From the IMG/VR virus record IMGVR_UViG_3300033571_028151, positions 22,708-86,707 of that record: a DNA stretch of 64,000 nt. One strand, given 5' to 3'. The notes under the pieces are model-generated. The model saw only the letters and a program-made list of their open reading frames with translations, searched no databases and was not told the origin of the DNA. Of this stretch, positions 4,895 to 10,571 are shown in pieces (position 1 is the stretch's first letter; every line of letters begins with the position of its first letter). The translations under genes and the position numbers were made by a program. The stretch comes from a virus.

Positions 4895-5803
4895 ATGGCA
4901 AAGAAATTGTCGACTGGTGGACTCATCAGTCCGACCAACTTGTGGGGCAAGCCGCTTCCAACTACGAAGCAGCCAACTTCCAAGCCAGCCACGGAAAAGG
5001 TTACAGGGAAGATGACCAATTCAGACGATGTCATGGACGACGAAGAAATAGATGTCGATGCCGAGTTGGCCAGCGCAGACGTCGATGATGACGAACTCGC
5101 GGCTGTCGAAGCAGAAGACGCGTCCGAAGTAACCGGCGAACTCGAAGGCGACGATGACGACGGCGACGAAGAAGCCGAAGAAGACGAAGCCGACGATGAA
5201 GAACCGGATTACGAGGATGGCGACGTCGATGACGAAAGTCAGAACGTTGTCGAAGACGATGCAGAGGTCGTCACCGCTGTGGCTGACGACGAAGAAGAAG
5301 CCGGAGACGAGGAAGTCTCCGATACCACTGAGGATGATGTTGTCATGGCAGAAAAGATGAGTTTGTCGGATCACGTTCGGGCTGAGATTGCTCGCCGGCA
5401 CAAGGTCGGTGAGTCGCTTCGTGGCAAGGACATCGTCGATACGCTGGCTAAGAAAAAGATCACGGTCAGCCCGGCGCAGGTCAGCCAGTTGCTGAAGAAA
5501 GCCGGACTGGGCGGCAAGACTCGTGGCCGTCCTGCGGCGACCACGGCGACTGCGTCGACGCCCGAGAAGAGCCGGTCGGCCCTGAAGGCCAAGAAGCGTG
5601 ATGTCACCACGGCGGCTGCGCCGACCGCAGCACCGCGCCGCGAGGCCAACAAAGCCCGGCCCACAACCGCGAACGGCTTCAAGGTGCCGATGTCGCAGTT
5701 GCAGGCTGCCGAGGCTTTTGTTGAAGCCTGCGGCGGTTCTTTTCAGGCTGCTGGCCGCATCCTGACCGCGGCTGAGCAGTTGTCTCAGACGTTCGGTAAC
5801 TGA
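4895..5803 (+). CDS. Acidic/basic DNA-binding-like protein
   Basis: 302 residues from ATG 4895 after GGAGAGAGGA. A short basic N-terminus is followed by a very acidic low-complexity region (about residues 46-150, almost all Asp, Glu, Ala and Val). A compact helix-turn-helix-like segment (about 150-205, LSDHVRAEIAR...VSPAQVSQLLKKAGL) leads into an AT-hook-like TRGRP (about 208-212) and a Lys/Arg/Ala-rich stretch. A helical C-terminus ends in AEQLSQTF. The acidic arm next to a basic DNA-binding half resembles nucleoid-associated or DNA-mimic proteins. Abundance, structure or a regulatory role cannot be told from sequence. A large hairpin follows the stop. Confidence 0.65.
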   Translation: MAKKLSTGGLISPTNLWGKPLPTTKQPTSKPATEKVTGKMTNSDDVMDDEEIDVDAELASADVDDDELAAVEAEDASEVTGELEGDDDDGDEEAEEDEADDEEPDYEDGDVDDESQNVVEDDAEVVTAVADDEEEAGDEEVSDTTEDDVVMAEKMSLSDHVRAEIARRHKVGESLRGKDIVDTLAKKKITVSPAQVSQLLKKAGLGGKTRGRPAATTATASTPEKSRSALKAKKRDVTTAAAPTAAPRREANKARPTTANGFKVPMSQLQAAEAFVEACGGSFQAAGRILTAAEQLSQTFGN

Positions 5804-5811
5804 TTTGTCTA

Positions 5812-5866
5812 GCCTCCCGCCCACGGGGTCGGTCGCTGCGCTGCGGCCGGCTCCGGGCGGGTAGGC
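5812..5866 (+). terminator. Large GC-rich stem-loop after the acidic protein gene
   Basis: An 11-bp stem of GCCTCCCGCCC (5812-5822) with GGGCGGG-T-AGGC (5855-5866), one bulged T, encloses a partly paired 32-base loop. It lies 9 bases after the stop. There is no T-tract, so it may be a terminator of another kind or an RNA-stabilising or leader structure for the genes that follow. Confidence 0.5.
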
Positions 5867-5871
5867 ATCTA

Positions 5872-5909
5872 GGCGCGCTTGCGCCCGTGCGAGACCACTC
5901 TGGTCGCGC
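5872..5909 (+). promoter_or_regulatory. Two further hairpins in the leader of the Ycf35-Ycf46 gene set
   Basis: GGCGC-GCTT-GCGCC (5872-5885) is a perfect 5-bp stem with a 4-base loop. GACCA-CTC-TGGTC (5893-5905) is another, extended by flanking GCG/CGC. With the larger hairpin at 5812-5866 this makes three stem-loops in 100 bases just upstream of the GGAGG ribosome site at 5916. They look like a structured 5' leader or RNA-processing sites. No known riboswitch pattern is recognised. Confidence 0.4.
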
Positions 5910-5928
5910 CAAATCCGGAGGCCATAAC

Positions 5929-6225
5929 GTGCCTGCTACTATTTGCCGCTTTGTGCGGCGCGAAAAACTTACGCCCGGGCGCACGATCATTATGCCCCGC
6001 GGCACGATAAAACGAATTCACGTAAATCAGCACATGATTCGCCGAAACAAAACCAAAGGCGAACGAAACAACGTTATCACAGTGCAGTGGCGCAACAAGT
6101 CATACCCTGTCGAAAAACTGGAAATCAAAGGACCGGCTAATGCTATTTATTCGCCGGAAAAGCCACTGAGTTGCGGCGCTCACGTGTGGGTCGAAACAAA
6201 AGCCGAAGTCATTGTCACCTGCTAA
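5929..6225 (+). CDS. Small basic hypothetical protein, GTG start
   Basis: 98 residues from GTG 5929, chosen because GGAGG (5916-5920) sits 8 bases upstream. Basic and beta-rich (RFVRREKLTPGRTIIMPRGT, ITVQWRNKSYPVEKLEI), which would fit a small SH3-like barrel binding nucleic acid. That is a guess from composition. It lies just before the Ycf35-like gene with a 12-base gap and may belong to the same transcript. Confidence 0.6.
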   Translation: MPATICRFVRREKLTPGRTIIMPRGTIKRIHVNQHMIRRNKTKGERNNVITVQWRNKSYPVEKLEIKGPANAIYSPEKPLSCGAHVWVETKAEVIVTC

Positions 6226-6237
6226 CACACATAACAC

Positions 6238-6603
6238 ATGTCACACATCGTACAAATCAAAACTGAAGTTCGTGACGCGACGGCCGTAATGTCGGCCTGC
6301 AAGCGCCTTGGCCTTGAGCAGCCCGTCGCCGGTCATCATGTATTATTTGCTGGTCAATCCGCCGATGGTCTCGCGGTCAGGTTGCCCGGCTGGTCGTACC
6401 CCGCCGTGTTCAATACGGAAACCGGAGCCGCGGCTTACGACAATTACAACGGCAACTGGGGTAAGCAGGAAGAACTCGATAAGTTTCTTCAAGCGTACGC
6501 GGTCGAAAAGGCGATTTACGAGGCACAGAAGGGTGGTTACTCGGTTTACGAAGAGACGCTGCCCGACGGTTCGATCAAACTTAACATCACGGTAGAGGCT
6601 TGA
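6238..6603 (+). CDS. Ycf35-like DUF1257 protein
   Basis: 121 residues. The start MSHIVQIKTEVRD, the central YDNYNGNWG and the ending GGYSVYEETLPDGSIKLNI match the plan of DUF1257/Ycf35 proteins, which typically begin MSHF..IKT and end in a variant of GF.v.e....dGsi.l.v. Ycf35 is encoded in plastid and cyanobacterial genomes and in some planctomycetes, and its biochemical role is unknown. The next genes are DUF2997 and Ycf46-like ATPase, its usual partners in cellular genomes, which strengthens the call. The gap to the next gene is 3 bases. Confidence 0.8.
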   Translation: MSHIVQIKTEVRDATAVMSACKRLGLEQPVAGHHVLFAGQSADGLAVRLPGWSYPAVFNTETGAAAYDNYNGNWGKQEELDKFLQAYAVEKAIYEAQKGGYSVYEETLPDGSIKLNITVEA

Positions 6604-6606
6604 TAC

Positions 6607-6798
6607 ATGAGTAAGACCATTCAGGTTGTTGTGTCGCCCACGGGCGAGACCAAGATTGAGACGTTCGGCTTCACCGGCAGTTCGTGTCAGGAGGCGTCGC
6701 GGGCGCTGGAGCAGGCTCTGGGCGCCAAGACGGACGAGACCCTGACCGGCGATTACTACGCGGCGTCCAATGAGCAGCAGATTGAAACCCAAAACTGA
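6607..6798 (+). CDS. DUF2997 protein
   Basis: 63 residues with the DUF2997 pattern: a beta-strand start (IQVVVSPTGETKIET), then GFTGSSC (21-27) and LEQALG (34-39). In cyanobacteria and planctomycetes this small protein is commonly encoded beside DUF1257. It is of unknown function, perhaps an adaptor. It is 3 bases after the Ycf35-like gene and 1 base before the GNAT gene. Confidence 0.75.
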   Translation: MSKTIQVVVSPTGETKIETFGFTGSSCQEASRALEQALGAKTDETLTGDYYAASNEQQIETQN

Positions 6799-6799
6799 G

Positions 6800-7240
6800 A
6801 TGAAACCGGATTTCTCGCCGTTCACTGGCGGGTACAGTCCGTTCATCCAAACTAAACGTTTTGATATCTTTCACCACTGCGTCGTGCGCAACCCTAATGC
6901 AGGGTATCCGCGCGAGTTATTTACGGTGTGGGGTCGCAACTACGACTCGCCGCCCCGCCCAGTATGCGAAGTGGTTTTATGGCCCAACCCGTACAGCCTG
7001 TACGTCGAGTGGGTCCACGTTGACGAGCAGCATCGTCGACAAGGAATAGCCACCGAAGTTCTTCGTGCATTGCGCGAGAAACTTGGAAAACTTGATATGA
7101 CCGGCGCGACAGACGAGGGCGAAGAGTTCGTCGCGGCGCGGGTTGATCGTATTAATGCGCCTGTCAAGAAACAGGCGCGTGTTGCACCCAAAAAGAACAT
7201 AACAAAGAAGGCAAAGCGTGTCTCTCGAAAAAGAAATTAA
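6800..7240 (+). CDS. GNAT-family N-acetyltransferase-like protein
   Basis: 146 residues from ATG 6800; an in-frame ATG at 6770 is possible but would sit inside DUF2997. The strand VEWVHVDEQHRRQGIATEVLRALREKL (about 69-95) is motif A of GNAT enzymes, with RRQGIA (79-84) as the acetyl-CoA pyrophosphate loop. The tail is strongly basic (KKQARVAPKKNITKKAKR), so it may bind nucleic acid. The acceptor is unknown. It sits within the Ycf35-Ycf46 set and overlaps the ATPase start by 23 bases. Usual sets in cells do not, to my knowledge, include a GNAT. Confidence 0.75.
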   Translation: MKPDFSPFTGGYSPFIQTKRFDIFHHCVVRNPNAGYPRELFTVWGRNYDSPPRPVCEVVLWPNPYSLYVEWVHVDEQHRRQGIATEVLRALREKLGKLDMTGATDEGEEFVAARVDRINAPVKKQARVAPKKNITKKAKRVSRKRN

Positions 7241-8711
7241 AGAACTTGTGTGCGCCGGCTTTTCCGGCGTTTGGGTCGAGTCGCTGGAGTGCGACGACGC
7301 TGTTAAGACTATTCGTGCGCTGGCCGAAGAGCGCAAGTGGGGCTTCGACGTCTGGGATATCGACCAGCAGTTGGAAAGCGGTATGGTCGCCGCACCCGGC
7401 CCGCTTCAGGCGATCCGGTCGATGGACCTGCCCAAGACAAACGAGACGCAGATTCTCGTGCTCAAGAACTTCCACCGGTACCTGCCCAACCCCGAGGTTT
7501 TGCAGGCGCTGGCCAACCGCGTTGTCCGCGGCAAGGGTGAGGGCCGTTACGTTGTGATCGTTGCGCCGACGGTTGCGCTTCAGCCCGAGATCGAGAAGTT
7601 GTTTACGGTCGTTCATCACGAACTGCCGGACGAGACGCAGTTGAAGGACATCTGCAACGATCTGTTCGGCGAGGGTTCGGCGTTTGAGAAGCCGACCGAC
7701 GAACAGGTGGGCAGCGTTGTTGACGCCTCCCGCGGCTTGACCCGGCAGGAGGCCGAGAACGCCTACGCGCTTTCGCTGGTGCGCAACAACAAGTTGGAGC
7801 CGGACACGATCTGGGGTATCAAGGCGCAGACGCTCGAAAAGAGCGGCACCATGACTCTGTATCGCGGCGACGCCAACTTCGAGAACCTTGGCGGCCTCGA
7901 AAACCTCAAGCAGTTTTGCATCCGCGCCATGAAGCGGCAGGGTGAAAAGAACGTCGATAAGCGACCCAAGGGCGTGCTGCTGCTGTCGCCTCCGGGCTGC
8001 GGCAAGTCCCAGTTCGCCAAAGCGCTGGGCAACGAGGTCGGCCGCCCGACCGTGATGCTCGACTTCGGCAGCCTGATGGGCAAGTTCGTGGGCGAGTCCG
8101 AGGGCAACATGCGGCGCGCCCTCAAGCAGGTCGACGCCATGGCGCCGTGCGTGCTGTTCGTCGACGAGATCGAGAAGGGTCTTGCTGGCGTCGGTTCGTC
8201 CGGCCAGACCGACAGCGGCGTCTCTGCCCGGCTGTTCGGTACGCTCCTGACGTGGCTCAACGACCACACGTCGGACGTGTTCTTCATCGGCACCTGTAAC
8301 GACGCCAGCCAGTTGCCGGCGCCGTTCGCCCGAGCCGAGCGTTTCGACGGCGTGTTCTTCGTCGACCTGCCCGGCGACGACCAGCGGCAGCGTATCTGGG
8401 ATATCTATCTAAATCACTTCGGCATCGACAAAGCGCAGCAGCGTCCGGACGATACCAACTGGACTGGTGCCGAGATCAAGTCGTGCTGCCGTCTGGCGGC
8501 GCTTCTGGACATCCCGCTCATCGAGGCGGCCCAGAACGTCGTGCCGGTGGCTGTGACCAGCGCCGAGCAGATCGAAAGCCTGCGCAAGTGGGCCGAGGGT
8601 CGGTGCCTGTCGGCGGATAACCCGGGGTTGTACTCGCGCGTGGGAAAAGCCCGTCCGGCGCCCGTCGCAAGCGGTCGCCGTAAGATTTCCGCTTCCCCGA
8701 GCGAAAACTGA
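7218..8711 (+). CDS. Ycf46-like AAA+ ATPase
   Basis: 497 residues. The N-terminal 210 residues follow the Ycf46 plan: KELVCAGFSGVWVESLE, then FDVWDI, then a helicase-like strand ILVLKNFHRYLPNPEVLQAL and IVAPTVALQPEIEKLF. The AAA+ module has Walker A SPPGCGKS (257-264), Walker B CVLFVDEIEKG (311-321), sensor-1 N361 (GTCND) and arginine-finger candidates R372/R375. Ycf46 proteins occur in cyanobacteria, plastids and planctomycetes, and I know of no settled biochemical role. The last 25 residues are basic and Ser/Pro-rich. The stop lies within a terminator-like hairpin, and the eight-hairpin array follows. Confidence 0.8.
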   Translation: MSLEKEIKELVCAGFSGVWVESLECDDAVKTIRALAEERKWGFDVWDIDQQLESGMVAAPGPLQAIRSMDLPKTNETQILVLKNFHRYLPNPEVLQALANRVVRGKGEGRYVVIVAPTVALQPEIEKLFTVVHHELPDETQLKDICNDLFGEGSAFEKPTDEQVGSVVDASRGLTRQEAENAYALSLVRNNKLEPDTIWGIKAQTLEKSGTMTLYRGDANFENLGGLENLKQFCIRAMKRQGEKNVDKRPKGVLLLSPPGCGKSQFAKALGNEVGRPTVMLDFGSLMGKFVGESEGNMRRALKQVDAMAPCVLFVDEIEKGLAGVGSSGQTDSGVSARLFGTLLTWLNDHTSDVFFIGTCNDASQLPAPFARAERFDGVFFVDLPGDDQRQRIWDIYLNHFGIDKAQQRPDDTNWTGAEIKSCCRLAALLDIPLIEAAQNVVPVAVTSAEQIESLRKWAEGRCLSADNPGLYSRVGKARPAPVASGRRKISASPSEN

Positions 8712-8750: not shown

Positions 8751-8780
8751 AGCGAGTGAAAAGCGACCGAAAAGCAAACT

Positions 8781-9047
8781 TTGACTGCCACGTGACGGCA
8801 GTCAATTTTGACTCCGGCAAAACCGGGAGTCAGACTCCCCCAAACCCGGCAGTCAATTTTGACTCCGGCAAAACCGGGAGTCAGACTCCCCCAAACCCGG
8901 GAGTCGATTTTTGACTGCCACGTGACGGCAGTCAATTTTGACTGCCACGTGACGGCAGTCAATCTGGTCGGCCCAATGTCGAGTTTTGTTGCAAAAAAAC
9001 ATGACACAGCGCCGGCGCCCGTACTGACTGCCGCGTAACGGCAGTCA
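8781..9047. repeat. Array of eight short inverted repeats in a gene-free gap
   Basis: The 354-base gap between 8711 and 9065 has no credible gene. It holds three hairpin types. Type A, TTGACTGCC-ACGTGAC-GGCAGTCAA, occurs at 8781-8805, 8911-8935 and 8938-8962, with a variant at 9025-9047. Type B, TGACTCCGG-CAAAA-CCGGGAGTCA (one bulge), is at 8809-8832 and 8860-8883. Type C, GACTCCC...GGGAGTC, is perfect at 8884-8905 and has one mismatch at 8833-8854. Types B and C form a 51-bp tandem repeat (8801-8851, 8852-8902). Stems are conserved although loops differ, which suggests that structure or protein binding is selected. The role is unknown: terminators, an origin, binding sites or a structured RNA are all possible. 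Confidence 0.9.
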
Positions 9048-9064
9048 AAATTCCGGAGACGACT

Positions 9065-9620: not shown

Positions 9621-10571
9621 ATGTCAACAGAAACAGAAAACACGATTGAAGTAGCGAACGAAGGTGTCGTCGAAACGGCGAATGAACTGCGCCAGACGAT
9701 GGGCGCCGTCAAGTTGTCGTTCTCGTGGCTGGGCACGCAGCGCAAGTTGTCCGACACGCAGACCAAGCAGGCGGCCGATACTTTTCACGCGGCCACTGAT
9801 CTGGTTACCGCGTCCAAGCGGCTGATCGACACCAAGAACAACACCTACCGCGTCCTGACCGCAATCAAGAGTCAGGCGTCGAGTTATTGGCGCAGCATGA
9901 CCCTGCCCTATCCGCAGGAAGGTATTCGGTTGATCAAGCAAGACGAGATCGCAGCATTTGAAGCGAAGATGCGGGAGTTCAAGGAGCAACTTGCCGCAGC
10001 GGCTGCCAACCTCCAGTTGGAGTACGAGTCCATCAAGGAAGCGGCACGGGAAAAACTGGGTGACCTGTTTAATCCCAACGACTACCCGCCTACCCTTGAA
10101 GGCGTCTTTGATATCAAATGGGAGTATCCGCCTGTCGAGCCGCCGAACTACCTGATGACGTTCAACCCCGAGTTGTACACGCAGGAGCAGTCACGGGTTC
10201 AGCAGCGGTTCGAGACTGCGGTTATCATGGCCGAAAACGCGTTTGCTGAGCAGTTGCAGGAAATGATCGCGCATCTGGTCGAGCGGCTGACCGACGAGCC
10301 TGATGGTACTAAAAAGACGTTCAAGGCGTCGGCGATTGAGAACTTCAAGGAGTTCTATGAAAACTTCCGCCGCATGAACGTGCGATCCAACGCGCAGTTG
10401 GAAGGGTTGATTCAGCAGGCAAATGACCTTGTCGCTGGCATCGACGCCAAGGACTTGCGCAAAAACAATGACCTGCGGCAGAACCTGACGCAGCAGATGA
10501 CGACGGTCAAGACGGCGCTGGACAGTTTGATCACGAATGCCCCGAGGCGGCGCGTGCTGCCCATGAGTTGA
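9621..10571 (+). CDS. Helical protein, possibly DUF3150-like
   Basis: 316 residues from ATG 9621, 2 bases after the previous stop. Mostly helical, with long charged stretches around residues 100-150 and 230-310. The layout, a helical start followed by a REKLGDLFNPNDYPPTLEGVFDIKWEY-like central strand pair, resembles DUF3150 proteins of phages and plasmids. I am not certain of this. DUF3150 genes often lie near AAA+ ATPase genes. The role is unknown. Confidence 0.6.
   Translation: MSTETENTIEVANEGVVETANELRQTMGAVKLSFSWLGTQRKLSDTQTKQAADTFHAATDLVTASKRLIDTKNNTYRVLTAIKSQASSYWRSMTLPYPQEGIRLIKQDEIAAFEAKMREFKEQLAAAAANLQLEYESIKEAAREKLGDLFNPNDYPPTLEGVFDIKWEYPPVEPPNYLMTFNPELYTQEQSRVQQRFETAVIMAENAFAEQLQEMIAHLVERLTDEPDGTKKTFKASAIENFKEFYENFRRMNVRSNAQLEGLIQQANDLVAGIDAKDLRKNNDLRQNLTQQMTTVKTALDSLITNAPRRRVLPMS

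Follow-up and report, generated by a model that had tools for sequence, protein, structure and literature searches.

A five-gene AAA+ ATPase module recurrent in a lineage of large phages and shared with plasmids and planctomycetes

We analysed a 64-kb stretch of the 86.7-kb IMG/VR virus record IMGVR_UViG_3300033571_028151 (the window, meaning the whole stretch that was analysed) and found in it a recurrent gene module centred on a Ycf46-related AAA+ ATPase. A preliminary description had placed four adjacent genes there, encoding a DUF1257 (Ycf35-like) protein, a DUF2997 protein, a GNAT-family acetyltransferase and the ATPase, and all four open reading frames (ORFs) do lie at those places on the plus strand, adjacent or overlapping (Table 1). 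The module itself is drawn differently: its five constant members are DUF1257, DUF2997, the ATPase, a DUF3150-like protein and a small protein that we call p85, and the GNAT is lineage-specific, optional cargo. In the most likely reading, which we hold with roughly even confidence, these genes encode an AAA+ protein-remodelling module that a lineage of large phages keeps as core equipment. The module is of a known but uncharacterised kind; the set is redrawn here, with the GNAT out, DUF3150-like and p85 in, and a link to ubiquitin-like (Ubl) genes added.

Relatives of the ATPase are encoded at 64 viral loci, some on contigs of 198-205 kb, and 48 of these loci make up the near clade, the phage lineage of the window, in which the module is near-universal. 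DUF1257, DUF2997 and the ATPase are all present at 47 of the 48, and the remaining locus is cut off at its 5' end. The DUF3150-like protein occurs at every near viral locus with enough sequence, and p85 wherever the contig extends far enough; the four-gene set was therefore too narrow, as both proteins lie beyond its limits. The ATPase, DUF1257 and DUF2997 also occur together in isolated phages of Rhizobium, Agrobacterium, Aeromonas and Pseudomonas and on plasmids of Bacillus, Nostoc/Trichormus and Thermovibrio. On plasmids of Ca. Manganitrophus the gene order is AAA-DUF1257-DUF2997-DUF3150-p85, and planctomycete loci read DUF1257-DUF2997-[extra gene]-AAA-DUF3150-p85, as in the phage. Because the near loci, isolated phages, plasmids and planctomycetes all share it, the association of DUF1257, DUF2997 and the ATPase is far beyond chance, and chance is excluded for these three. 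The recurrent neighbourhood that had been expected was thus found, and with copies in phages, plasmids and chromosomes the set deserves to be called transferable. Its presence in a phage is not unusual, given its near-universality in the lineage, and elsewhere it is known without a name (PHROG 8638, 20456 and 23133); DUF1257 and DUF2997 are already annotated in Rhizobium phage RHph_I4. Our literature search found no paper on a phage Ycf46/DUF1257 module and none naming DUF3150.

The ATPase sequence is laid out as a degenerate N-terminal AAA-like domain (residues ~34-187) followed by an active AAA domain (~222-470). Its Walker A lysine (K263), Walker B residues (D316/E317), sensor 1 asparagine (N361) and arginine-finger residues (R372/R375) are invariant in 16 diverse members, which identifies the protein as an AAA+ ATPase. 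When the N-terminal 205 residues were aligned with the AAA core by hhalign, the match had a probability of 89% (P=2e-6) and kept its register over 149 columns, starting at the Walker B strand and reaching the lid; in 30 controls with shuffled columns the probability was at most 0.7%, and in three unrelated alignments 0.9%. The protein is thus probably a tandem AAA ATPase with a dead first domain, which has no Walker A, and a live second one. The closest solved relatives of its AAA core are Cdc48/VCP (1e-81).

In a maximum-likelihood tree built by a quick method with a midpoint root and some long branches, the window ATPase shared a clade with other viral proteins and with those of plasmids and planctomycetes, apart from the canonical Ycf46-like proteins (SH-aLRT support 100). 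Within that clade the near-phage ATPases were monophyletic (support 100), and their nearest bacterial relatives were planctomycete ATPases with 47-58% identity. Viral and plasmid proteins make up most of the outer branches of the clade, a hint of an origin on mobile elements that is read from a tree with a midpoint root and some long branches. We rejected an identity with canonical Ycf46 on the basis of this sister position and of the neighbourhood: a Fer4_12/radical-SAM protein stands beside 27 of 59 canonical Ycf46-clade loci, and no radical-SAM relative was found in any near-phage, planctomycete or window locus. The set had also been equated with that of cyanobacteria, plastids and planctomycetes. 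The planctomycete part of this comparison stood; the cyanobacterial and plastid part did not, as the ATPase falls outside the canonical clade and the described cyanobacterial cluster, DUF2997-ycf35-fed7, has no Ycf46 (PMC4284462).

Several further observations were made on the ATPase loci. The canonical Ycf46-clade loci with both DUF2997 and a Fer4_12/radical-SAM (NrdG-like) protein are L102, L111, L112, L129, L131, L136, L150, L154 and 19 more; in two of them, from Spirochaetales (L102, L136), the ATPase gene also adjoins genes resembling parts of contractile injection systems. Two contigs binned as Alphaproteobacteria and Kuenenia (L097, L098) encode ATPases 69-73% identical to that of the window and are probably misbinned phage contigs. 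One planctomycete ATPase (L172, 8369-9844, minus strand) is divided between two ORFs, through a frameshift, a pseudogene or an assembly error.

The ATPase gene is interrupted at six of the near loci, where the break follows residue ~319. An Rfam scan of four of these genes detected a group I intron in each (69-73 bits, gathering threshold 50), at L039 8939-9721, L042 6384-7171, L043 8508-9295 and L049 8934-9716; the genes at the other two loci (L040, L051) have their break at this position too. The exons join at LFVD/EIEKG, that is, within the Walker B codons, and an HNH-like ORF lies inside the intron. We had at first read the insertion as an intein, a reading dropped after the Rfam matches to a group I intron in these four genes. 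Homing introns usually occupy conserved, needed sites. Since this one sits in the Walker B codons, as is typical of conserved, needed genes, the phage probably needs its ATPase gene.

Profile searches supported the four family assignments, that of DUF1257 as a borderline case. DUF2997 scored 54.7 bits against a Pfam cut-off of 24.1, the GNAT 23.8 against 20.7, and the AAA domain matched at E=1.5e-27; DUF1257, at 20.9 bits, was just below its gathering cut-off of 22.2, and an iterated profile grouped it with plasmid and phage proteins that others annotate as DUF1257. In an alignment of 18 diverse DUF2997 members, Cys27 and Gly13 were invariant. The DUF1257 and DUF2997 ORFs of the window are in the same frame with a single TGA between them, and at two Clostridia loci one ORF holds DUF1257 followed by DUF2997 (L110 8542-9108; L124 8567-9130). 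An AlphaFold2 model in which the two window ORFs were joined by reading through this TGA was confident (predicted local distance difference test score (pLDDT) 88, predicted template-modelling score (pTM) 0.82). Together, the natural fusion and the joint model suggest a physical link between the two proteins, neither of which has significant sequence relatives in the PDB.

The DUF3150-like protein of the window scored 15.0 bits with PF11348, for which the cut-off is 24.9. Its iterated family includes a plasmid protein that matches PF11348 at 1e-8 (35.3 bits), and we label the window protein DUF3150-like because it lies below the cut-off and this family member above it. Its AlphaFold2 model consists mainly of long helices (pLDDT 85, pTM 0.74), and no significant sequence relatives were found in the PDB. 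Relatives of p85 are found in planctomycetes, Manganitrophus plasmids and a Pseudomonas phage (8e-18) and, weakly, in Rhizobium phages.

The GNAT carries the acetyl-CoA motif (R/Q)xxGx(G/A) in the form RRQGIA and belongs to its family by this motif as well as by score. We rejected it as a fixed member of the module, as the preliminary description had it, since it occurs at only 7 of the 48 near-clade loci and in most of the others DUF2997 abuts the ATPase directly. The DUF2997/AAA junction is a swappable cargo position. At six planctomycete loci (L088 6195-6974, L086 6240-6974 and four more), a protein of ~250 aa from an unknown family replaces the GNAT there; it has the motif VVEG..DIEFLRR and by eye might be guessed to be TOPRIM- or OLD-like.

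Downstream of p85, several planctomycete loci encode a ThiS-like small protein (1e-4), an E2/RING-like protein, a Prok-JAB peptidase (2e-6) and a ThiF E1 (4e-21). The E2/RING-like protein has no Pfam match; by inspection, it combines in one chain an HPHV...Cys motif and a tail with many conserved cysteines that looks RING-like or treble-clef-like. This cluster was seen at L083, L084, L085, L086, L088, L090, L093, L095, L099, L172 and L173, with parts cut off or missing in some, and modules without Ubl genes were seen at L166, L167 and L171. At L088, from Rhodopirellula solitaria, the Ubl gene lies near 10184-10414. We then searched 119 evenly drawn Planctomycetota genomes for the E2-like family and DUF2997. 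DUF2997 was present in 18 and the E2-like family in 3; in all three, its gene had a same-strand DUF2997 gene at a distance of 4.3-6.7 kb. Two of these three genomes are outside the discovery set (L172, L173) and have the module together with Ubl, E2 and E1 genes; a JAB gene is present in one of them and was not found in L172. A JAB gene beside the Manganitrophus plasmid module was rejected as support for the Ubl link, as it proved to be RadC. ThiF above its cut-off and Prok-JAB were absent from 12 virus records, most of ~200 kb, and the E2-like profile had no match in 16 virus records, so that the phage appears to have the motor and its partners only, without conjugation genes. The Ubl link of the module is, we claim, undescribed, with subscription papers lying outside our literature check.

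Table 1 Module genes and neighbouring features in the window.
Feature	Position	Strand	Remarks
DUF1257 (Ycf35-like) protein, 121 aa	6238..6603	+	Pfam PF06868 E=4e-4; PHROG_20456 4e-5; constant member
DUF2997 protein, 63 aa	6607..6798	+	Pfam PF11211 E=9e-15; constant member
GNAT-family acetyltransferase, 146 aa	6800..7240	+	Pfam PF00583 E=6e-5; optional cargo at the DUF2997/AAA junction
AAA+ ATPase, 497 aa, GTG start, Ycf46-related	7218..8711	+	PF00004 1.5e-27; constant member
Intergenic repeats	8780..9056		34-nt palindromic unit (TGACTGCCACGTGACGGCAGTCA) x4, CACGTG core; 51-nt tandem pair
DUF3150-like coiled-coil protein, 316 aa	9621..10571	+	Iterated family; constant member
Left-handed beta-helix/bactofilin-like protein, 338 aa	10568..11584	+	Weak PF04519 match, 9e-4
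p85 family protein, 87 aa	11581..11844	+	No Pfam match; constant member

Among the other neighbours, the beta-helix/bactofilin-like family is present at 37 near viral loci and has clear matches at no bacterial or plasmid locus, and thus belongs to the near phage clade only. Structured DNA had been described on both sides of the genes. On the downstream side it consists of the repeats that separate the ATPase gene from the gene after it; upstream, no structured or repeat DNA was found at 5780-5960. Two upstream genes are conserved across the near phage clade, one (4895-5803) for an acidic protein of 302 aa, whose winged-helix-like match is weak, and the other (5887-6225) a 112-aa ORF matching PHROG_8676. 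A terminase gene adjoins the module on the opposite strand, and the phage also encodes a DNA polymerase, a DnaB-like helicase, an SbcC-like protein and a UvsX-like recombinase, in a replication block ~20 kb from the module.

AAA-based remodelling, which had been proposed from the first four genes, is supported as the best class of mechanism; host control, the other role that had been suggested, is conceivable. In a remodelling machine, the ATPase would assemble as a ring and take a protein complex apart or unfold it, in the manner of Cdc48 or NSF. A single adaptor made up of DUF1257 and DUF2997 would deliver the substrate to the ring or form its cap, p85 and the coiled-coil DUF3150-like protein may tether the machine to its target, and the GNAT would be a lineage-specific cargo. 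In the phage, the targets would be complexes for replication, gene expression or assembly, either its own or those of the host. In planctomycetes the machine may be coupled to the predicted Ubl conjugation pathway, and tagged proteins are therefore a plausible substrate there. Several points weigh against this reading. To our knowledge, no member of this ATPase clade has a tested function. The roles of the partners are argued from neighbourhood and a single fusion, and the similarity to Cdc48 lies in an AAA core common to many AAA proteins. Foldseek searches with the models of the DUF1257-DUF2997 pair and the DUF3150-like protein gave best E values of 0.007 and 0.2, with template-modelling (TM) scores below 0.5 on the query, and hence no usable solved fold. 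In addition, the third genome of the E2-like linkage count is not independent of the discovery set.

The Ubl neighbourhood would also fit a counter-defence, in which hosts tag phage proteins with Ubl and a phage segregase frees the tagged proteins or diverts the host machine, keeping the motor and adaptors without the conjugation enzymes. Bacterial Ubl conjugation acts against phages, the module adjoins Ubl/E1/E2/JAB genes in the planctomycetes that hold the nearest bacterial ATPases, and ThiF, Prok-JAB and the E2-like family were not found in the sampled large phage records. However, the Ubl cluster is absent beside many of the planctomycete copies, relatives are also carried by phages of Pseudomonas, Rhizobium and Aeromonas, for which such a pathway is not shown, and near-universal presence and the intron look like a core function rather than an arms-race gene; with the phage host itself inferred, we regard this explanation as unlikely. 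Doubtful too, and somewhat bolder, is the proposal that the module serves as the dedicated unfoldase of a bacterial Ubl system not yet described: of mobile-element origin, it would have joined E1/E2/Ubl/JAB genes in planctomycetes, and phages would keep only this unfoldase part, with which to strip or dismantle host complexes tagged with Ubl.

Alternatively, the ATPase might load or remove proteins on phage or plasmid DNA as a replication or nucleoprotein remodelling factor. Large phages and plasmids both carry the module, the plasmid copies of Nostoc and Trichormus have dnaN/dnaX or polymerase III epsilon genes nearby, those of Rhizobium phages are followed downstream by a replicative helicase gene, and the window phage has the replication genes listed above. 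Yet its module is well away from that block and beside the opposite-strand terminase, planctomycete chromosomes keep the module by Ubl genes and not replication genes, and no DNA-binding domain was found in the five module proteins, all of which leaves this, like counter-defence, a minority possibility. An auxiliary metabolic role or iron-sulfur/redox maintenance, as the plastid and cyanobacterial names Ycf35 and Ycf46 might suggest, draws on the cyanobacterial cluster with fed7 (PMC4284462) and on the Fer4_12/radical-SAM neighbours of canonical Ycf46-clade ATPases; it is weakened by the lack of radical-SAM relatives at near-phage, planctomycete and window loci and by the different clade of the phage ATPase, and is quite improbable. 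To chance neighbours, or to the four-gene set with the GNAT as first read, we give scarcely any credence: the GNAT ORF overlaps the start of the ATPase gene by 23 bases, so that the two may be co-translated, but the locus counts refute the set for the GNAT and exclude chance for the other three.

Ycf35 and Ycf46, conserved proteins of plastids and bacteria, have no settled role that we know of. They now gain a wider, mobile setting, a five-gene partner list, a predicted tandem-AAA architecture and a probable DUF1257-DUF2997 link. The association with a full Ubl/E1/E2/JAB set in planctomycetes suggests that the ubiquitin-Cdc48 partnership has a counterpart in bacteria, testable in the isolates Rhodopirellula solitaria and Neorhodopirellula pilleata and in the cultured phages Rhizobium RHph_I4 and Pseudomonas Samunavirus.

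We compared the module with known systems. The Iet anti-phage system was rejected as a match: the score with the NCBIfam model of the IetA ATPase was 54 bits against 510, reflecting generic AAA similarity only, and no other Iet model matched among the six window proteins scanned. For PRTRC, a plasmid Ubl/E1/E2/JAB cassette, the planctomycete E1 weakly matches PRTRC_ThiF (25 bits, cut-off 145), whereas the other PRTRC models are unmatched and the phage has no such cassette. Cdc48/p97 and NSF share with the phage ATPase a classic AAA core and two AAA domains, one of which can be degenerate, the presence of two in the phage protein being suggested here by the N-domain/AAA-core alignment; the phage protein differs in having no Cdc48 N-domain, no Walker A in its first AAA domain and other adaptors, and its score with the full-length Cdc48 family was 88 bits against a cut-off of 803. 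Canonical Ycf46 (SpoVK/Ycf46/Vps4-type) is alike in its AAA core, its N-terminal region and a DUF2997 gene often nearby, but the phage/planctomycete/plasmid clade is separate (support 100) and has DUF3150-like and p85 as partners instead of the Fer4_12/radical-SAM protein. The cyanobacterial DUF2997-ycf35-fed7 cluster also has DUF1257 beside DUF2997, with a ferredoxin in place of the ATPase, the order reversed and no DUF3150 or p85 (PMC4284462). PHROG_8638/20456/23133 and the isolated phages Rhizobium phage RHph_I4, Pseudomonas Samunavirus and Aeromonas phage HJ05 likewise combine AAA, DUF1257 and DUF2997; in these phages, however, the ATPase is ~30% identical, the AAA gene comes first, and the DUF3150 partner is distant or unrecognisable. 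The planctomycete chromosomal clusters (L083-L096, L166-L173) have the same five families in the same order, with the ATPase identity given above; they differ in the Ubl, E2/RING-like, JAB and E1 genes that often follow and, at six loci, in the unknown-family gene that takes the place of the GNAT.

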